64,000 bases of DNA from Gemmatimonadaceae bacterium (lineage in GTDB: Bacteria; Gemmatimonadota; Gemmatimonadetes; Gemmatimonadales; Gemmatimonadaceae): positions 1 to 64,000 of the forward strand of contig DASXKV010000011.1 of NCBI GenBank assembly GCA_036496605.1. The letters run 5' to 3'. Shown here in pieces: positions 44,615 to 54,099 of the stretch (positions within the stretch are counted from its first letter, which is position 1; the number at the start of each line of letters is the position of its first letter). Under the pieces are notes generated by a model, which was not told the DNA's origin, made no database searches, and saw only the letters and a program-made list of their open reading frames with translations. A program made the translations under genes and the position numbers.

Positions 44615-46051
44615 ATGATTCGAAGCGGAATCGTAGCCATAGATCAGCTGTGTGATGGCTTCCGGCCCCGCCGACCGTACCTGCTCACTGGAGGTGCCGG
44701 CGCGGGCAAGACGATGTACGCCCTCCAGTTCCTCAATCAGGGGCTGCGCTCTGGTGAGAAGGTACTGATGCTCACGCATGCCGATCGCACGGACGTTCTG
44801 TCGCAAGCCGACCATCTCGGCGTTCAGCTACACGACGCGCTTCGTGAGAATCGTGCAGTCGTCATGCGCTACCGGCCGGACTTTGCCAGGCGCCTTGCGC
44901 GCGCCGGCACGAGCGAGGGCGCGTTCGCCGACCTGCGGCGGGTCATCGGTGAGCTGCGCCCACGCCGCATTGCAATCGATCCGTTCGCGCCGCTCCTCGA
45001 GGACGGCTCTGCTTCGCCTGTCCCCGCCTCAGCGCTCGCGGAATTGCTCGAGCTCAGCCAGGCGACAGCTCTGCTGACCTATTCAGAGGATCTCGGCGCA
45101 AGCTACGATCGTCGGCTCGAGCCGCTGTTGCACGCTGCCGCGGGCGTCTTTCGCATTGCGCGCGAGCATGGGCCGCTCCGCACACTCGAGATCGTGTCGC
45201 TCCGTCAGCCGGCGGTGGCAACGGGCGTGCTGCTAGAGGCGACTTCGCTGCCTAACGAATCGGTGACGTCGCCCACGAGGCCGCTGCATCTCGTCCATGT
45301 CGTCGAAGCGCCGACCGAGGAGCTGTTGACGACGCTCCGCCTCCAGCACGAAGTCGAGGTGTATCGAGATGTGTCGAGCCCCACGGCCGTGGCTGGGGCG
45401 ACGCTGATCATCGAGACGGATCATGCTACGCTCGATCGCGCTCGCGAACTGCTGCGGTCGAGCCTGCACGAGAGGCGGACGCCGATCGTGGTCGTCACGC
45501 GCTTCAATCTTCGCTCGCTCGACCGTGCGCGGCTTCTCCGCGACGGTGCGGACGAGGTGCTCGCCGGCGATATGGGCGCTCCGGAGCTGCTGCAGCGCCT
45601 TGCCGCAGCGCTGCGTCGTGGCCACCTCGAACGTCCGCCGGTTGCCGTGCACGAAGACGAAGGGCTCACGCAGGCGAGCTTCGCCGCGCCGGGGGAGCTA
45701 CTCGACGCCGAGCGTTTCTCGGCGGCCTTGCGCGAGCGCGCGGCACACGACGACGCTGTACCGTTCGCCGTCGCGCGCCTAACGATTAGTGGCGACACGA
45801 CCGCACTTCGGGCACTCGGCGTTCTCGCCCTTGGATCGATGCGCGTTTCCAGCGGTGATCTGGCTGCCCTCGTCGACGAGAGCATCGCCGTATATCTCCA
45901 CGGCGCAGGCCGCCGTGACGTGCCGGCATTTGTCGATCGACTGCGTGGACGGCGCCCTCCGGGTGCGCCGCCACTCCGTGTTACCTCCGCATATTTTCCA
46001 AGCGATGGTGCTGCCGTGCGGCAGCTCGTTGAGCCGTTGAAGGTTCGTTGA
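44615..46051 (+). CDS. KaiC/RAD55-like ATPase fused to receiver-like and degenerate GGDEF-like domains (exopolysaccharide operon regulator)
   Basis: 478-residue cytosolic protein heading the exopolysaccharide operon. Residues 1-210 form a RecA/KaiC-like ATPase: Walker A GGAGAGKT (26-33), Walker B ending Asp122 (RRIAIDP). Residues 222-335 have the alternating hydrophobic strand/helix pattern of a response-regulator receiver domain (LHLVHVVEAP, GATLIIETD, PIVVVTRFN, GADEVLAGDMGAPELL), but the phospho-acceptor Asp is not evident. Residues 360-446 match the topology of GGDEF domains (DAERFSAALRERA, FAVARLTI, DLAALVDESIAVYL, PAFVDRLR); the GGDEF loop is replaced by VDES, so cyclase activity is not expected. 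The stop is 4 bp before the next gene. Domain reading beyond the ATPase is inference. Confidence 0.78.
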   Translation: MIRSGIVAIDQLCDGFRPRRPYLLTGGAGAGKTMYALQFLNQGLRSGEKVLMLTHADRTDVLSQADHLGVQLHDALRENRAVVMRYRPDFARRLARAGTSEGAFADLRRVIGELRPRRIAIDPFAPLLEDGSASPVPASALAELLELSQATALLTYSEDLGASYDRRLEPLLHAAAGVFRIAREHGPLRTLEIVSLRQPAVATGVLLEATSLPNESVTSPTRPLHLVHVVEAPTEELLTTLRLQHEVEVYRDVSSPTAVAGATLIIETDHATLDRARELLRSSLHERRTPIVVVTRFNLRSLDRARLLRDGADEVLAGDMGAPELLQRLAAALRRGHLERPPVAVHEDEGLTQASFAAPGELLDAERFSAALRERAAHDDAVPFAVARLTISGDTTALRALGVLALGSMRVSSGDLAALVDESIAVYLHGAGRRDVPAFVDRLRGRRPPGAPPLRVTSAYFPSDGAAVRQLVEPLKVR

Positions 46052-46055
46052 CATC

Positions 46056-46547
46056 ATGCGCTACGCGCTCGCGTTTCTTCTCGCTGCCGTTTGCCTCACG
46101 GCCGGAGCGATCGCCACCTTCGCCCACATCAGCGCCGTGTCGCTCGCGTCGGCGTCCGCGCCGAGCGGGCAGCTTGTCGCCGACACCGTGCCGACACGAG
46201 AAATCGCGACGCCCATCTCGCCGACCGCTGCGGACTACGCTCGTTATGCGGAAGGCGATCGCGCGTGGCGTGAGAAGTACGCGCGGCAGTATTCCATTGC
46301 CGAGCTGCGCGCCCGCGGTAATGGCAGGCGGACGCCGCGCGAATCGATGCAGGACTCCGTCTTCATGCTTACCCGACATGGCGATCGCGACGGTGCGATC
46401 AGGGAGCTCGAGCGGTGGGTTCGTGGCCATCCGCGGGATCGCGAGTCCTTGCTGTCTCTCGCGCGATTGCTGAATGAGGTCGGCCGCACCAATGACGCGG
46501 TCGTCCGCTATCGCGAGATTCTCGCTCTTCAACAGCACGTCAACTAG
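46056..46547 (+). CDS. Small exported TPR-containing protein
   Basis: 163 residues. An N-terminal hydrophobic segment (ALAFLLAAVCLTAGAIATFAHI) acts as a signal or anchor; a low-complexity spacer follows, and about residues 105-160 hold one to two tetratricopeptide units (DGAIRELERWVRGHPRDRESLLSLARLLNEVGRTNDAVVRYREI in pieces). Starts 4 bp after the ATPase gene and ends 3 bp before the barrel gene, so it belongs to the operon. Probably an adaptor or assembly factor for the export machinery; no homologous pga gene is known to me. Confidence 0.82.
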   Translation: MRYALAFLLAAVCLTAGAIATFAHISAVSLASASAPSGQLVADTVPTREIATPISPTAADYARYAEGDRAWREKYARQYSIAELRARGNGRRTPRESMQDSVFMLTRHGDRDGAIRELERWVRGHPRDRESLLSLARLLNEVGRTNDAVVRYREILALQQHVN

Positions 46548-46550
46548 CCG

Positions 46551-48485
46551 ATGCGCCTTGCCGTTCGCGCCGCGTTGATCGGCCTCGGACTCTGTGTCGC
46601 CGCGTCGCCGGTACACGCGCAGCGGACGAATCGCGGTCGACGCGCGCCGTCGAGTCAGGGTAGTGCGACGGTTCGCGCCGAGCTCGCGACGGTCCTGCTC
46701 CAATCTGGGCGCTATGACGAGGCCGCCCGTGAGTTCCGGCAGTTGCTGTCGCGCGACCCATCGAGTTTCGAATATCGGCTTGGTCTCGCGCACGCCCTCG
46801 CGTGGGGAAATCATCCGCACGAGGCCGAACCCGAGCTCGTGCAGCTCCTCGCAAAGCGTCCGGCTACTCCCGGGCTCGACTCACTCTTGCGCGCCGTCCG
46901 CGATGCGTACGATCCGCGCGCCGTCGATGCGGCGCAGTGGGTCGCAAGCGATCCGTGGTACGCGCCCTATCGACTCGCTCTCGCGCGTGCCCTCGCGCGC
47001 GAGGGAATGTCTCGCTTGGCGATCGCGCATTACGACACGCTGCTCGCGCGTCCAACGACGGACCACATTCCCGACCGCGGCGCGCTCCTGCGTGAGATGG
47101 CGGACGCGTACGTCGTCGCAGGTGATCGGCTCGGTGGCGTGGACAAACTGCGCGCCGCGTTGGCGCTTGCTCCCACGGATACGGCGCTGCGTCACACGAT
47201 TGCATCGATGCTCGCCGACGCGCGGCGCAACGCGGATGCCCGCGCACAGTACGACACGCTGCTCGTTGAGGCACCCACCGGCCCGCTGCTGCTCGAGCGG
47301 GCGCGTCTTCGTCTCGCGTTAGGCGATCGCGCCGGTGCCGATTCCGATCTCTGGGCATCGGCGAAGCTGCAGCCGACCGCCGATGCGTATCGCTTGCTTG
47401 GTGACCTGCTCCGCGAGCGTGGCGACTACCGCGGTGCGCGCTCGATGTACGCCGCCGCGCGCCAGGGTGCTTCGCGCGATCAGCGTACGGCCGTGGCCGA
47501 GGCTCTCGCGCAGCTCGACCGCGAAGAGCGGCCGGCGATGCTCGCACCGTCGATCGGCGACGATCCGGGCTGGCGGCTGTCCGAGGACGCCGCCGCCGAC
47601 AACCTCGGTGTCGCCTACTCCGTCCTTCGCCTCGCACGCACCATCCCGCTCACCGAGGCGACGCGGGTGACGTTAGGCGGCGACTGGCGCGAGTTGTCCC
47701 AGCACACGACGGCGCATCGGGTCGACGCGAGCGGCTTCGGCGGAACGATCGGCGCATGGCAGGAAGCTGGCTATGGCCCGGTGCTCGGGCGCCTCGAGGT
47801 CGAGGGCGGCGGGGTGCAGCATCCGAGTGTCGGCACGTTGGGCGAGGGAAGAGCGGCGCTCTCAGCGTGGCTTTTCGCCTGGCAATCGACGCTGGAGCTC
47901 GCGACCATGCCGGCGTACCCGTCGCTCTTTTCGATCGATGCGCTCCTCCCCGCAGCCGGCGGGCCGCCACTCACCGAGCGCGATGCCGCGGTCACGCTGG
48001 GCGGACCAATCGGTCCGCTCGACGTCGGCCTGCGATGGGAACGCTCCATCGTCAGCGACGGTAATCGTCGCCTAACGATCGATGGCTACGCGCGCTATCC
48101 ACTCGGTGGGAATCTGTTCGCGGTGTATTCGGGGAATGGCGTTGCCTTCGCCGATCGCAGCGTGTTGTACTGGGATCCCGAGCAGTATTCGGCTCAAGGC
48201 GCCGGGCTCGAATACGCCGTTAGGCAGGCGCGCGGGTTGTCCTTCTCGGCGCGCGTGTTGCCGAGTTACGCCTGGAGCGACGAGTCCGCCATCATACCGT
48301 CGCCGGACGGTTCGATCACGCGCGGCCCCCTCAGCCGGCACACGGCCAAGCAGATCGCCGCCTCTGCCGAGGCGGGCTACCGAGTCCACGGCTGGGAAGC
48401 AGCGGGGGCGGTAAGCTACGGTCGCGGGCGCGCCGGCGATTATCAGCGCTTCGGCGCGTCGATCACTGTTCGGATGGGGAGCTGA
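46551..48485 (+). CDS. PgaA/BcsC-like TPR plus outer-membrane beta-barrel exporter
   Basis: 644-residue exported protein (signal ending VHAQ). Residues about 35-330 are tandem TPR units (LLQSGRYDEAAREFRQLLSRDPSSFEYRLGLAHALAWG and later repeats, in pieces). Residues about 345-644 are amphipathic strands of a beta-barrel, with VLYWDPEQYSAQG, a motif position recalling the barrel region of PgaA and BcsC, and a C-terminal strand ITVRMGS. In PNAG and cellulose systems this two-part protein guides nascent polymer through the periplasm and outer membrane. Stop and next start are 1 bp apart. Shorter than E. coli PgaA (about 800 residues). Confidence 0.82.
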   Translation: MRLAVRAALIGLGLCVAASPVHAQRTNRGRRAPSSQGSATVRAELATVLLQSGRYDEAAREFRQLLSRDPSSFEYRLGLAHALAWGNHPHEAEPELVQLLAKRPATPGLDSLLRAVRDAYDPRAVDAAQWVASDPWYAPYRLALARALAREGMSRLAIAHYDTLLARPTTDHIPDRGALLREMADAYVVAGDRLGGVDKLRAALALAPTDTALRHTIASMLADARRNADARAQYDTLLVEAPTGPLLLERARLRLALGDRAGADSDLWASAKLQPTADAYRLLGDLLRERGDYRGARSMYAAARQGASRDQRTAVAEALAQLDREERPAMLAPSIGDDPGWRLSEDAAADNLGVAYSVLRLARTIPLTEATRVTLGGDWRELSQHTTAHRVDASGFGGTIGAWQEAGYGPVLGRLEVEGGGVQHPSVGTLGEGRAALSAWLFAWQSTLELATMPAYPSLFSIDALLPAAGGPPLTERDAAVTLGGPIGPLDVGLRWERSIVSDGNRRLTIDGYARYPLGGNLFAVYSGNGVAFADRSVLYWDPEQYSAQGAGLEYAVRQARGLSFSARVLPSYAWSDESAIIPSPDGSITRGPLSRHTAKQIAASAEAGYRVHGWEAAGAVSYGRGRAGDYQRFGASITVRMGS

Positions 48486-48486
48486 C

Positions 48487-49698
48487 ATGCAGACGACCGC
48501 GCTCCAAATAGCGATCGCGTTTGTGTTGACGTTTCTTGTCGTCCTCATCGTCCGCTACGTGCTGCTGTTGTGGTTGAGCTATTTGCAACATATCGAGAAT
48601 CGCGGTCGTGACGCGGAGTGCACGCACCAACCACCCGTGACGATCCTCGTCCCCGTGTTCAACGAAGAGGCGGTGATTGCGCCTGCGCTGCGCAGTCTTC
48701 TCGAGCTTCGGTATCCGGTTTTTCACGTCATCGTCATCGACGACGGCTCGAGCGATCGCACCTTCGAGCGCGCGTCGGCAGTCGCCGGCCAGTACGGTGA
48801 ATCGACGATTCGAGTCGTTCGCAAGAACAACGGTGGCAAGGCCGCCGCGCTGAACACCGGCATGACGCTCGCGACCACAGAGTTCGTTCTGTGCATGGAC
48901 GGCGACTCTCGCCTCCATCCGGACACGCTGCGCTTTGCGATGCGGCACTTCATCGACCCGCGCGTCGGCGCGGTTGCGGGAAACGTGAAGGTGGTCAATC
49001 GCCAGAACCTCTGGACGAAGCTGCAGGCGCTCGAGTACGTCGAAGGGCTCAATACGGCTCGGCGCGCTCAGGGCTTCCTGCGCGTCGTGAACATCATTCC
49101 CGGGCCGATCGGCGTGTTTCGTCGCGACGCGCTGTTGCGCGCCGGCGGATACGACACCGACACATTCGCCGAGGACGCCGATCTTACGCTCAAGCTGCTC
49201 ACGGCCGGCTGGCACGTCGCCTACGAGGAGCGCGCCATCGCGTACACGGAAGCGCCGGAGCACTTCCTCGATCTCGTGCAGCAGCGCTACCGCTGGACGC
49301 GCGGTATCCTGCAGGCGTTGCGCAAGCGCGCATCATGGCTCCGTGCTCCACAACGAGGCGTGGCGCTCTGGCTTTCACTGCTCGTTATGCTCTTCGAGGC
49401 AGTCGTCTGGCCGACGATGAACGTGGTCGGCAACCTGCTCTTCACGGTGGCAGCGCTCTCTGCCGGCGCGGCGTCGGGCGTGCTCTACTGGTGGGCGTTG
49501 CTCACCATGCTCGACGTCGCCGCGGCACTCTACGCGGTCGGCATGGAAGGAGAGGATTTGCGGCTGATCCCGTACGCCGTTGGCTATCGATTCTTTTTCA
49601 TAACGATGATCGACGTCGCGAAGCTCCTCGCGACGGCGGAAGAAGTTGCTCGCGTACGCATGACATGGGGGAAACTCGAACGTGCAGGCCGCTTGTGA
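48487..49698 (+). CDS. GT2 processive beta-glycosyltransferase (PgaC/IcaA-like polysaccharide synthase)
   Basis: 403-residue inner-membrane synthase. One N-terminal membrane helix pair (residues 8-30), then the GT-A domain with all motifs of processive GT2 enzymes: VIDDGSSD (Asp85/86), MDGDS (Asp138-x-Asp140), FAEDAD (catalytic Asp near 230) and QQRYRW (QxxRW, Trp270). At least three more helices occupy residues 290-385. Most like N-acetylglucosamine or chitin-type polymerases (PgaC, IcaA, NodC). Followed 29 bp later by a small membrane protein and then a deacetylase. No PilZ domain is attached. Confidence 0.9.
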   Translation: MQTTALQIAIAFVLTFLVVLIVRYVLLLWLSYLQHIENRGRDAECTHQPPVTILVPVFNEEAVIAPALRSLLELRYPVFHVIVIDDGSSDRTFERASAVAGQYGESTIRVVRKNNGGKAAALNTGMTLATTEFVLCMDGDSRLHPDTLRFAMRHFIDPRVGAVAGNVKVVNRQNLWTKLQALEYVEGLNTARRAQGFLRVVNIIPGPIGVFRRDALLRAGGYDTDTFAEDADLTLKLLTAGWHVAYEERAIAYTEAPEHFLDLVQQRYRWTRGILQALRKRASWLRAPQRGVALWLSLLVMLFEAVVWPTMNVVGNLLFTVAALSAGAASGVLYWWALLTMLDVAAALYAVGMEGEDLRLIPYAVGYRFFFITMIDVAKLLATAEEVARVRMTWGKLERAGRL

Positions 49699-49727
49699 GT
49701 TGGTTGTCACCCGAGACTGGATGTTGA

Positions 49728-49907
49728 GTGTCTATTAATATCTTGCTCTCCACGATCATTCTCGTGTCGTTTCTCGTCACGATCGTGATGGCCGTCGGCA
49801 GTTACGTCGCCTATAAGTTGCGTGAAGCGCGACGCCCACGGCTCGAGCTTCCTGCTGCAGACGGCGAATCAGCGTACTTCGAACGCATCGTCGCCGACGA
49901 GAAATGA
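49728..49907 (+). CDS. Small single-pass membrane protein, positional PgaD counterpart
   Basis: 59-residue product found by reading the gap between the synthase and deacetylase genes: GTG at 49728, stop TGA 49905-49907. Residues 3-28 form one hydrophobic helix (INILLSTIILVSFLVTIVM in part), followed by a positively charged turn (YKLREARRPR) and an acidic tail (GESAYFERIVADEK). Its stop overlaps the ATG of the deacetylase gene (ATGA at 49904-49907), a strong sign that it is translated and coupled. In E. coli PgaD is a small membrane partner of PgaC; similarity in sequence is not claimed. No good ribosome-binding site is visible, which lowers certainty. Confidence 0.75.
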   Translation: MSINILLSTIILVSFLVTIVMAVGSYVAYKLREARRPRLELPAADGESAYFERIVADEK

Positions 49908-51796
49908 ATCGCCCGCGCCCGACGTCCCTTGGCTTCTCGCTCGCGGCGGCGCTCGTCGTCGTCGTGTCGGTCATGCTGACGCTGCGCCGGGGAGACGCCG
50001 CGACACGCCCGGAGCCAGCGCGCTTTTCCGGTTCCCGCGTCGTACAGCGAATGCCATCGCTCCTCGCCGACTCCCGTCTGCCGTCCCGGGTAGTCGTTGA
50101 CGTGCTGCGTGACGAGTCCGCAGCGTCTTTTTATAGCGCAGCTGGAGCCCTCGATTCGATTACCGGCACTTGGCGAGCCGCGCTCTCGGCCGCAGGTGCT
50201 GAAGCACGCATCGTGACCGCCGGCGAGGCGAGTACCGATCGCACCGCTCGGGTTCTCGTCATCCCCTCCTCACCATGCCTAACGGTGCAGGCTCATGAGG
50301 CGATCGATGGCTTTGCTGCTCGAGGCGCGGGCGTCATCATCACGGGCCTCACCGGCGTCTACGACGCCGGCTGTCGGCCGATCGGATATGGACTGATCGT
50401 TGGCTCGACCGGCGCCGCCCGCGCCGACACGCTCGACTCGCGCCCGATGGCGTACGTAACGATCCCCGCTGGCAGCCCGCTCACGGTCGACATTCCGCCC
50501 GGCTCCCGAATCGATCTCAACCCGGGTCGACAGGTCGCGCTGCGCCTGCCGCAGCGCGACGCATTCTTCTCGGACTACGCCCTACAGCCGCAACCCGCAG
50601 GCAACCTGCCGCTGCTCGACGTCGCCATCACGCACGCACCGTTAGGTAAAGGGCGGCTCGTCTACTGGGGCTTCGAGCTGCGCGACGTCGTGCATTTGCC
50701 CTGGGACCGCGCGCTGAGTGCACTCCTCGTCCGCAACAGCGTCGCGTGGGTGGCTGGCCTGCCGCTCGGCAGCATCGAGCCCTGGCCGAAGGGGCGAATC
50801 GCCGCCGCCGCAATCGCTCAGGACGTCGAGGCCGGCTTTCCCAATGCGCAGTACGCACTCGATTCACTCGAGGCGGCCCATGTCCGCTCGACGTTCTTTC
50901 TCACGTCGGATCTCGCGCGTAGCTATCCCAGACTGTCGCGCGACCTTGCCAACGCTGGCGAAGTTGGAAGTCACACCGAAAATCATCGCTTGTTAGGCGG
51001 GCTGCCGCTCGCGAACCAGCAGGCTCGCCTCGAAACGTCGGAGCACGATCTCGCGCGGCTCCTTGGGCTGCCCGTCGACGGCTTGCGCCCACCGCAGGAA
51101 CAGTTCGACGTCGCGACCATGAGCGCATGGCTCGCCCTCGGCGGCCGATATCTCTTCGGCGCCAACGATTCGCGCTCGGTCTCGCCGGAGTTGCTTCCGG
51201 TCGGACGTGATACGCTCGTGCTGATTGGCCGGGTGGGTAGCGACGACTTTGCTGCCGCGGCGGCCGCGCATAACGATGCGACCGCGACCGCGAGATTGCT
51301 GCTCGACGAGTATGCGCGGTACCGTGCTCTCGGCGGTCTCTATGCGCTCAGCTATCACTCCCAGTTGCTCGCCGGACCCAATCTCGTCCCGGCGCTCGCG
51401 CGTGTTGCGCGCACGCTCGCGGCCGACACGGTGGTCTGGCTCGCGACCACCGGTGAGATCGCCGATTGGTGGCGCGTCCGCGCTCAGCTCGATGCACGCG
51501 TATCATCACGTGCCGACGGTTTCGATGTCACCGTCCGCAATCGCGGCGAGCGTCTCGTTGGCGGTGCGGTCGTTCGCGTTGATTTCCCCTCGTCGCGCCC
51601 GTTGGGCATGGCGACGGCGGCACTCCTTCGCTCGAGCCAGGGCTCGGCGCGATTGTTGTTGCCGCCCATTCCGGGGAAGACGACGCGGACGTACCACGTG
51701 TACTACGCCGGCGCACGTCCCACCGCGGCGCGGAGTCGCGCTCGCGTTCGAGCGACGCCGCGCAAGCACAAACGCTTCTGGTGGCTTCCGTTTTAG
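49904..51796 (+). CDS. Membrane-anchored polysaccharide deacetylase (NodB/CE4-like) with N-terminal accessory domain
   Basis: 630 residues. N-terminal anchor (LGFSLAAALVVVVSVMLTL). Residues about 60-290 resemble a GATase1-like/DUF accessory domain. Residues about 298-480 are the NodB-type deacetylase: metal Asp307 in AQDVEAG, His357 and His361 in GSHTENH, and Arg395 in RPPQ. A beta-rich tail (about 525-610) may bind polymer. The usual TFDDG motif 1 is replaced by QDVE, as in some divergent CE4 branches, so activity is likely but not certain. The cognate polymer would be an N-acetylated glycan made by the upstream synthase. Ends 15 bp from the convergent kinase gene. Confidence 0.83.
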   Translation: MNRPRPTSLGFSLAAALVVVVSVMLTLRRGDAATRPEPARFSGSRVVQRMPSLLADSRLPSRVVVDVLRDESAASFYSAAGALDSITGTWRAALSAAGAEARIVTAGEASTDRTARVLVIPSSPCLTVQAHEAIDGFAARGAGVIITGLTGVYDAGCRPIGYGLIVGSTGAARADTLDSRPMAYVTIPAGSPLTVDIPPGSRIDLNPGRQVALRLPQRDAFFSDYALQPQPAGNLPLLDVAITHAPLGKGRLVYWGFELRDVVHLPWDRALSALLVRNSVAWVAGLPLGSIEPWPKGRIAAAAIAQDVEAGFPNAQYALDSLEAAHVRSTFFLTSDLARSYPRLSRDLANAGEVGSHTENHRLLGGLPLANQQARLETSEHDLARLLGLPVDGLRPPQEQFDVATMSAWLALGGRYLFGANDSRSVSPELLPVGRDTLVLIGRVGSDDFAAAAAAHNDATATARLLLDEYARYRALGGLYALSYHSQLLAGPNLVPALARVARTLAADTVVWLATTGEIADWWRVRAQLDARVSSRADGFDVTVRNRGERLVGGAVVRVDFPSSRPLGMATAALLRSSQGSARLLLPPIPGKTTRTYHVYYAGARPTAARSRARVRATPRKHKRFWWLPF

Positions 51797-51811: not shown

Positions 51812-53497
51812 TTAATCTTGGCTCACGATGCGCAGTGGCAGATCGCGATCGCGCTTTCGGCCTTTATCGTCGGTGACGACCACCGTTAGGCGGTAATTAC
51901 CGGCAGGCAGCGGCGCGACGGCAAGCGAATGCTGACGCCGCGTTCCTGCTCCGACGGCCGCATCGTCGAAGCTCGCCATCATGCGATCCGCGGCATGGCG
52001 AGTGCCTTCGCGGACGACCGACATCCGCACCTTGAATGCTGTGCCATCGTCCAAACCGCAGACGTCATAGCTCACCTTCACGTCCTTGCCTTGGGGCGCG
52101 CTGCCAACCGAGTCGACGAGTATGCCGAACGGTCGCCTACCATCCATCGCGACGCCCGGCGGACAGCGCGACTGGCTGCGTGGCGCGCCGGCGGTCATGC
52201 GAAACGCCGAGAAGGTCAGAACGGCCACGGCAATAATGAAGGCGCTCGCAATCGAAACGGTCGAACCGCGAGACGTCAGAATCCGTCTCGCCCATTCCGA
52301 GACGCGGCGCCCATAACGGCCGAGGAGTCTTGCGGCAGCACGCGCTGTCGGTTGCAGCCCCGACGCCGCTCGGCGCATCGCAGCGAACACGGGACGCATG
52401 CCGCGAATCCCGCCTCGCATGCTCGCTAGCAGTTCTCGCAGTTTGGGTCGGTGCCGCTTGAGCATCTGAACGCTCGCATCGAACGCCGCGTCGAGCGCCG
52501 GTGTCGAGTGCGACTGTGCTCCGTCGAAGCCCTCGATGCGGGACATCGGTGCCGTCCTGGCCGTCGGGTCGGCAACGGACAGCGGTGCCGGAGTCGGCAC
52601 CCATCGCCGATGTTCGCCCGTTCCGACACTGATCTCGCGGCCCCCCAGCGCCGCGATCAACTCGTCGGCGTCCCGGTAGCGATCCTCGGGATGTTTGGCG
52701 AGCATCCGCTCGATCACGGTGAAGAGCGCGCGATCGTCGGCGGTGTCGAGAGTAGGCACCGGTAGCGGCGCCTGAATGTGCTTCATGAGCGTGCCGAGCG
52801 CGTCACCGGCATCGAACGGCGGATTGCCCGTTATGCACTCGTAACCCACGATGCCAAGGCTGTAAATATCGCTGCGCCCGTCGACGTCCTTCGCCCGCGC
52901 CTGCTCGGGGCTCATGTACTTCGGCGTACCGACGGACATGCCCGTCGTCGTCAGGCGTGTCGCCCCCGCGGACCGCGCGATCCCGAAGTCCGTCACGACG
53001 ACGCGGCCATCCTCGTCGTGGCGCAGGTTGTCCGGCTTCACGTCGCGATGCACGACACCGCGGCGATGCGCGTACCCAAGGGCCGCCGCCGTTTCGATGA
53101 TGATCTGTCGCGCATCCGCCGCCGAAATCCGCCCCCGCGCGCGCAAGCGATCGGACACGGATTGGCCCCGCAGCAACTTCATTACGAAGAAGATCACGTC
53201 GCCACGGCGGCCAACGCGATAAATCGGCACGATGTTCGTGTGCTCGAGCGCCGCTGCCGTGCGTGCCTCGCGCAGGAACCGCTCGACCAGTTCGCGGTCA
53301 AAGGCGAGCGTGAAAGGAAGCACCTTGATCGCGACCTCGCGCTCGAGCTGTCGCTCACGCGCGCGATAGACGATCCCCATTCCGCCGCGGCCGAGCTCCT
53401 CGAGAATCTCGTATTCGTCGTCGAGTCCCGAGCGCACGAGATCGAGGTCGGTGACCTCCAGCTTTCGGCGCGCCTTTCCCTGATGTCGATTGGTCAT
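51812..53497 (-). CDS. Membrane-anchored PknB-type serine/threonine protein kinase
   Basis: 561-residue kinase from the ATG at 53497, which overlaps the HPP stop (ATGA). N-lobe: GRGGMGIVY glycine loop and AIKVL Lys; C-lobe: HRDVKPDN catalytic loop, DFGIARS, and MSPEQARAK activation segment. A Ser/Thr- and Arg-rich juxtamembrane region precedes a single transmembrane helix (ASAFIIAVAVLTFSAFRM, about 430-448) and an extracytoplasmic beta-sandwich of about 110 residues, likely a sensor. It is divergent from an FHA-domain protein, an expected phosphothreonine reader, with the HPP gene between them. Confidence 0.93.
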   Translation of the reverse strand: MTNRHQGKARRKLEVTDLDLVRSGLDDEYEILEELGRGGMGIVYRARERQLEREVAIKVLPFTLAFDRELVERFLREARTAAALEHTNIVPIYRVGRRGDVIFFVMKLLRGQSVSDRLRARGRISAADARQIIIETAAALGYAHRRGVVHRDVKPDNLRHDEDGRVVVTDFGIARSAGATRLTTTGMSVGTPKYMSPEQARAKDVDGRSDIYSLGIVGYECITGNPPFDAGDALGTLMKHIQAPLPVPTLDTADDRALFTVIERMLAKHPEDRYRDADELIAALGGREISVGTGEHRRWVPTPAPLSVADPTARTAPMSRIEGFDGAQSHSTPALDAAFDASVQMLKRHRPKLRELLASMRGGIRGMRPVFAAMRRAASGLQPTARAAARLLGRYGRRVSEWARRILTSRGSTVSIASAFIIAVAVLTFSAFRMTAGAPRSQSRCPPGVAMDGRRPFGILVDSVGSAPQGKDVKVSYDVCGLDDGTAFKVRMSVVREGTRHAADRMMASFDDAAVGAGTRRQHSLAVAPLPAGNYRLTVVVTDDKGRKRDRDLPLRIVSQD

Positions 53498-54099
53498 CGC
53501 CGCACCGGCTCGTCTTTCAGCCTGATGCGCTGGAACCACTCACCCATGAGCGCGATCACGACCACGCCGCCCATCATGCTCATCGAATTTTTCCACGTGA
53601 GGTGGTACGCGCCGAGCGTGACGAGCAGCGCGGTCGCCGCGGAGGGCGGATGATTTGCCCGGAGCGTTGGTTGAAGCAACGCGGTCATTGCAACCGCCAT
53701 TGCGCTTGCCCACACGCGCGCGACAGTGATGTTGCCGTCTCCCAGGCTGGAGCCCGACGCGCCAACGAGAACCACAATAAGCCAGGCGCAGAGGAGCGCC
53801 GAGAGATGACCGATGACAACGCTATGAAACCGTGAGGTTGGTTGCCCAGGTAAGGTCACGATGACAACGATGCTCGGCCCCAGCGCGGCGAAGAGCCACG
53901 GCTGAGACGTCGCGAGTGCAAGCGCACCGGCAACGAGTACCAGAATCGCCGACATTGCGGCACCCCAAGCGGTGTCGCCGGCGATCAACCGCGGACGGGC
54001 GCGCGCTGGCCGGGCGGCAGGCCGCCGCTCCGAAGGTGCAACCGGAGCGATGCGGGTCGGGCCCGTGACGGCGGGAGTGGGAACGGTGGGAGTGATCAT
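53494..54099 (-). CDS. HPP-family integral membrane protein
   Basis: 201 residues, about four to five transmembrane helices after a Pro/Arg-rich N-terminal segment of about 40 residues. The family signature HPPSAATALL is intact, and the SQPWLFAALGPS segment also matches. Members have been linked to nitrite transport in chloroplasts, but most bacterial members are uncharacterised. The stop overlaps the kinase start, so the two are one translational unit; a functional tie to signalling is possible. The start at 54099 lacks a convincing ribosome-binding site. Confidence 0.88.
   Translation of the reverse strand: MITPTVPTPAVTGPTRIAPVAPSERRPAARPARARPRLIAGDTAWGAAMSAILVLVAGALALATSQPWLFAALGPSIVVIVTLPGQPTSRFHSVVIGHLSALLCAWLIVVLVGASGSSLGDGNITVARVWASAMAVAMTALLQPTLRANHPPSAATALLVTLGAYHLTWKNSMSMMGGVVVIALMGEWFQRIRLKDEPVRR

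Follow-up and report, generated by a model that had tools for sequence, protein, structure and literature searches.

The window analysed here, a stretch of 64,000 nucleotides of a soil bacterium from the Gemmatimonadaceae contig DASXKV010000011.1 (assembly GCA_036496605.1), contains a six-gene operon on the forward strand (44615-51796). It likely encodes a synthase-dependent exopolysaccharide system in which a BcsE-type receptor for cyclic dimeric guanosine monophosphate (c-di-GMP) regulates a PgaC-type family 2 glycosyltransferase (GT2), replacing or adding to the PgaC/PgaD mechanism. The regulator, termed REG (478 aa; 44615..46051, + strand), comprises a KaiC-fold domain, a degenerate receiver domain (REC*) and a degenerate GGDEF domain (GGDEF*). 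As judged from sequence comparisons and domain architecture, REG is homologous to BcsE, through which c-di-GMP is sensed in the cellulose secretion of Escherichia coli (PMC7439463, PMC11470070), and it is paired with a PgaC-type synthase and with a 59-aa single-pass membrane protein (49728..49907, +) that is BcsF-like by place and topology. No literature on such a combination of a KaiC/BcsE-like regulator and a PgaC-type synthase was found among open-access papers.

Kinship of the regulator to BcsE

BcsE is composed of a KaiC-like NTPase N-terminal domain with a degenerate Walker A motif, followed by a REC* and a GGDEF* domain (PMC7439463, PMC11470070). In REG, the KaiC/RecA-fold domain covers residues 3-202 (44621..45220, +; Pfam PF06745, E 1.4e-19), REC* approximately residues 222-340 (45278..45634, +; Glu267 at the phospho-Asp position, acidic pair lost), and GGDEF* approximately residues 362-474 (45698..46036, +), where the GGDEF signature is gone. 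The acidic residues of the receiver are canonical in some deltaproteobacterial relatives and lost in the window protein. Searched as a single sequence, REG yielded the KaiC domain and a weak receiver match; a profile of 42 homologues, gathered within the phylum and through the synthase scan, matched KaiC with E 3e-59, and its columns 237-475 matched the REC-GGDEF tandem of PleD (residues 151-397) with E 4e-32. The receiver-like and degenerate GGDEF-like parts named in a preliminary description of the locus, made from the letters alone, are thus real, and both C-terminal domains proved to have receiver and GGDEF folds by profile comparison and by Foldseek.

Alignment of the 42 REG homologues with eight BcsE sequences (hhalign) gave 436 colinear columns with both I-sites aligned (Prob 98.2, E 5.5e-14); the single E. 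coli BcsE sequence matched the REG profiles weakly (Prob 8 and 1), and significance needed the BcsE alignment. An AlphaFold model of REG (pLDDT 87.7, pTM 0.60), which replaced a first model built from 8 sequences (pLDDT 70), was compared with the PDB using Foldseek; the top five hits were BcsE chains (E 7e-17 to 7e-15), with KaiC next. The preliminary description had known of no exopolysaccharide locus with a regulator of this kind, and here it erred, as BcsE of cellulose secretion has the same architecture (PMC7439463, PMC11470070).

The likeness to BcsE could be convergent, i.e. a KaiC domain and a REC-GGDEF tandem could have been fused twice with no shared three-domain ancestor; each domain is common alone, and the REG domains have strong matches of their own to ordinary KaiC (E 2e-37) and to diguanylate cyclases (E 9e-11). 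We consider such a double fusion unlikely, since BcsE is, domain by domain, closer to REG than to the ordinary families: E 6e-9 for its N-terminal domain against REG and 6e-4 against ordinary KaiC, and E 3e-9 for its GGDEF* domain against REG and 0.03 against diguanylate cyclases, in control alignments of unequal size and diversity and with a cyclase set drawn mostly from the host genome. Convergence would also have to account for the extra RxxD motif of the receiver, with identical Arg-to-Gly spacing in BcsE and REG (see below), and for the location of both genes in exopolysaccharide operons with a single-pass peptide.

Candidate c-di-GMP sites and the KaiC-fold domain

E. coli BcsE binds a c-di-GMP dimer via R306ATD in REC* and R415TGD in GGDEF*. 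In the REC* motif of REG that aligns to the former, R300-S-L-D303 (45512..45523, +), both Arg300 and Asp303 are shared by 34 of the 47 homologues with three domains, and the distance from the Arg to the following Gly is 11 residues in REG as in BcsE. The equivalent of the latter, the GGDEF* I-site R410-VSSG-D415 (45842..45859, +), retains Arg410 and Asp415 in 46 of the 47 homologues, and few positions of the family are better conserved than these. Outside the Gemmatimonadota the GGDEF* I-site is a plain RxxD (LRFED, LRSED, CRQED), with a remnant NGEF signature in two proteins; within the phylum it reads RxxxGD, i.e. two residues longer. Binding of c-di-GMP by REG is predicted from these motifs, with real doubt for the window protein owing to the insertion. 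The host genome contains 11 GGDEF and 3 EAL domain matches, and c-di-GMP signalling is thus probably present in the host.

Several observations weigh against REG as a BcsE-type receptor. The I-site of the window protein (RVSSGD) carries the two extra residues and has no Arg at position -3 of the RxxD motif, and its affinity for c-di-GMP could therefore be reduced or lost. The fold matches of REG to BcsE have low TM-scores (0.33-0.38), because the domains are oriented differently; the match therefore concerns the domains and their order, not the overall pose. The Pfam model for BcsE (PF10995, CBP_BcsE) finds nothing in the host genome at E values of 10 or less, and the operon lacks BcsQ and BcsR, the route of BcsE to BcsA (the rest of the genome was not searched for them). 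Comparison of the 59-aa protein family with BcsF (hhalign) gave Prob 5 and E 0.008, which does not establish homology in sequence. As both the PF10995 match and the cellulose context are missing, REG is not filed as a strict member of the BcsE family.

It is equally improbable, though conceivable, that REG descends from a c-di-GMP receptor and now acts as a mere scaffold of the synthase complex, the signal being lost or, as with PgaC/PgaD, acting on the synthase itself. This would agree with the insertion and the loss of the -3 Arg in the Gemmatimonadota I-site loop, with the regulators of Ignavibacteria, from which REC* is wholly missing, and with E. coli PgaC, which answers c-di-GMP without such a receptor (PMC8461298); however, a scaffold role leaves unexplained why Arg410 and Asp415 are nearly invariant despite the insertion.

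The Walker A motif of the KaiC-fold domain (GGAGAGKT, residues 26-33; 44690..44713, +) is intact in the window protein, and 36 of 64 homologues retain its Lys. Hence ATP binding and hydrolysis could be the controlling input, with REC* and GGDEF* as structural parts, as the preliminary description had supposed in part when it proposed ATPase control. We regard this as improbable to a greater degree than the scaffold role: 27 of the 64 homologues have Arg in place of the Lys, the motif has otherwise decayed in several Gemmatimonadota (GPPGPAKM, GAPGPEKM), the catalytic Glu pair of KaiC is replaced by A56-D57 in the window protein and varies over the family, and the Arg and Asp of the I-site are among the best-kept family positions. 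In view of the frequent Lys-to-Arg replacement, c-di-GMP is the likelier input than ATP turnover. The KaiC-fold domain may serve mainly as a docking and oligomerisation platform, with ATP binding possible in some lineages including this one, and is read as part-way toward the degenerate domain of BcsE.

Membrane partner and conservation of the locus

A total of 80 synthase loci were surveyed, with per-gene counts made where the flanking sequence was sufficient; the loci were from Gemmatimonadota, deltaproteobacterial/Myxococcota metagenome-assembled genomes (MAGs), Acidobacteria, Ignavibacteria/Bacteroidetes, Caldithrix and others. REG was found upstream in 56 of 59 loci and a small membrane protein in 78 of 78; the counts were 65 of 69 for the exporter and 61 of 67 for the deacetylase. 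This survey was searched by synthase and is hence biased to synthase-bearing loci, which a search with REG in 395 Gemmatimonadota genomes corrects within the phylum: the synthase subfamily was present in 34 genomes, the regulator in 40, and both in 31 (Fisher p 1e-34). The order regulator, exporter, GT2, small membrane protein, deacetylase recurs across several phyla. In further genomes and further phyla, too, the ATPase gene keeps its place next to the synthase gene; the small TPR protein was found in near relatives of the window locus only. Acidobacteria have a divergent regulator, the regulator lies downstream in one MAG, and the Ignavibacteria regulator is shorter.

The 59-aa protein, which matched nothing in family scans, has one predicted membrane helix and a short C-terminal tail with the family motif AYFER/PRYF. 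It had been assigned to the PgaD slot, but it shows no similarity to PgaD in sequence or in topology (one helix, not two). REG and the small membrane protein are also paired, as two-gene units on the - strand, in three genomes with no adjoining exporter, synthase or deacetylase (L134:2625-4338, L135:10234-11914, L136:4575-6246), and the motif is retained at the end of the small protein in these pairs (SRYFVRYAPP, SWFFVHYAPE). This synthase-free pairing is the best evidence that REG and the small protein are functional partners in the manner of BcsE and BcsF.

The synthase-free pairs have a POT peptide transporter gene on one side and a GCS2-CBS gene on the other, both neighbours being identified in L134 and L135. 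In Ignavibacteria (L080, L087, L090 and others), the small protein has a long Pro/Gln-rich tail (approximately 120-170 aa in total), and this tail and the REC*-less regulator occur together. One full-length REG homologue (L039:16743-18449, -) stands in a 20-kb neighbourhood without matches to the synthase, the exporter or the small protein.

An ordinary pga operon lying behind an unrelated KaiC gene is refuted by this conservation and is extremely improbable: KaiC-type domains are common (five host-genome matches above the Pfam cut-off), but the co-occurrence of regulator and synthase, their adjacency in several phyla, the membrane-protein partner and the lack of any PgaD or PgaB match all stand against it.

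The polysaccharide operon and known systems

The open reading frames confirm six genes on the + strand, all as first described, with gaps of 4, 3, 1 and 29 bp and then a 4-bp overlap; family scans identified the KaiC ATPase, the TPR proteins, the GT2 and the NodB-type deacetylase. Among public sequences, the closest relative that shares this gene order is a Gemmatimonas MAG (L044), with a synthase 88% identical.

The synthase (403 aa; 48487..49698, +) contains a GT2 domain (family scan, E 1e-34), and its signature residues DD, DxD, ED and QxxRW, noted in the preliminary description, are invariant across the family alignment. It shares 36% identity over 228 aa with E. coli PgaC, to which the GT2 is much closer (E 4e-42) than to BcsA (2e-13), and its profile matches PgaC with E 1e-53 and BcsA with 7e-20; the best NCBIfam model is PgaC_IcaA, at 208 bits and below the cut-off of 422. 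By these sequence matches the synthase is PgaC-like. The absence of a PilZ input of PgaC had been remarked upon; this premise was mistaken, as PgaC has no PilZ domain. Proteins of approximately 1170 aa with a related GT2 domain (E ~1e-80 to 1e-94), e.g. G000:C68:69638-70837 (-) and many in other Gemmatimonadota, constitute a separate, widespread group.

REG is followed by a small TPR protein (163 aa; 46056..46547, +) with a hydrophobic segment at its N-terminus, and by a larger TPR protein (644 aa; 46551..48485, +) that is a probable beta-barrel exporter in the role of PgaA or BcsC, with no clear orthology to either. The NodB-type deacetylase (630 aa; 49904..51796, +; PF01522, E 3e-12) has D307, H357 and H361 intact and an N-terminal domain weakly resembling the GH42 trimerisation domain; it gave no profile match to PgaB and contains no hydrolase domain. 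The early assignment of a PgaC-type synthase with exporter and deacetylase, and with no PgaB glycosidase half, is thus supported. The active-site His or Asp is lost in the orthologues L035, L036, L037, L079 and L080, which are perhaps non-catalytic; hence deacetylation is likely here and not general. A Ser/Thr protein kinase gene (51812-53539, -) is convergent with the operon and ends approximately 16 bp from the deacetylase stop.

In the mechanism proposed for BcsE-type control of this operon, the 59-aa protein would tether REG to the inner membrane next to the synthase, with its short aromatic tail contributing an extra strand to the KaiC-fold domain, in the way that BcsF extends BcsE. The REC*-GGDEF* tandem would bind c-di-GMP via R300/D303 and R410/D415, and the bound state would favour an active synthase. 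The GT2 would then polymerise a UDP-sugar, probably UDP-N-acetylglucosamine, the NodB enzyme would partially deacetylate the chain in the periplasm, and its export would be the task of the TPR/barrel protein.

The closest known system is BcsE-BcsF of E. coli type II cellulose (bcsEFG), which shares with this locus the order KaiC-like NTPase, REC*, GGDEF*, RxxD-type sites in both C-terminal domains, a regulator gene heading the operon, a single-pass peptide of approximately 60 aa with a cytosolic tail, and the setting in a synthase-dependent exopolysaccharide system. It differs in that Walker A is intact here and degenerate in BcsE, and that the I-site has the two-residue insertion here; the synthase is a PgaC-type GT2 without PilZ here and BcsA there, and the operon has no BcsB, BcsQ, BcsR or BcsG. 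With pgaABCD the operon has in common the PgaC-type GT2, the TPR/barrel exporter and the NodB-type deacetylase; its gene order is different, a BcsE-type regulator is added, and it is not filed as pga because PgaD and PgaB are missing. The PelD protein of the Pel system, which is membrane-anchored and has a GAF domain, is like REG a receptor with a degenerate GGDEF I-site for an exopolysaccharide synthase, and unlike REG it has no KaiC or REC domain. The fold of PelD is the closest to that of the BcsE GGDEF* domain (PMC7439463). KaiC clock ATPases share the N-terminal RecA/KaiC fold, whereas REG has one KaiC domain, has not kept the Glu pair, and is fused to REC*-GGDEF*. The diguanylate cyclase PleD shares the REC-GGDEF tandem, whereas REG is without the GGDEF signature and has Glu in place of the phospho-Asp.

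Descriptions of BcsE have so far dealt with its regulatory role in one branch of cellulose secretion. The same pairing of REG and synthase in several phyla indicates that cellulose systems are probably not the only users of the BcsE-type sensor module. In Gemmatimonadota, in Myxococcota/deltaproteobacterial MAGs and in other phyla, PgaC-type operons are headed by a gene for a BcsE homologue, which suggests a general receptor and tether module. This module offers a route for a PgaC-type synthase without PgaD to respond to c-di-GMP; the E. coli complex of PgaC and PgaD is itself bound by c-di-GMP, and none of the Pga proteins has a known c-di-GMP motif (PMC8461298). The chances are about even that BcsE-BcsF is one specialised instance of a module, older and exchangeable, of c-di-GMP receptor and membrane tether that serves PgaC-type synthases in many phyla, and that REG-type proteins, often with Walker A, are intermediates from KaiC/PleD-like ancestors to the degenerate enterobacterial BcsE. 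The REG family makes the origin of the three degenerate domains of BcsE open to testing, and it allows a better annotation of genes otherwise labelled as circadian-clock proteins.

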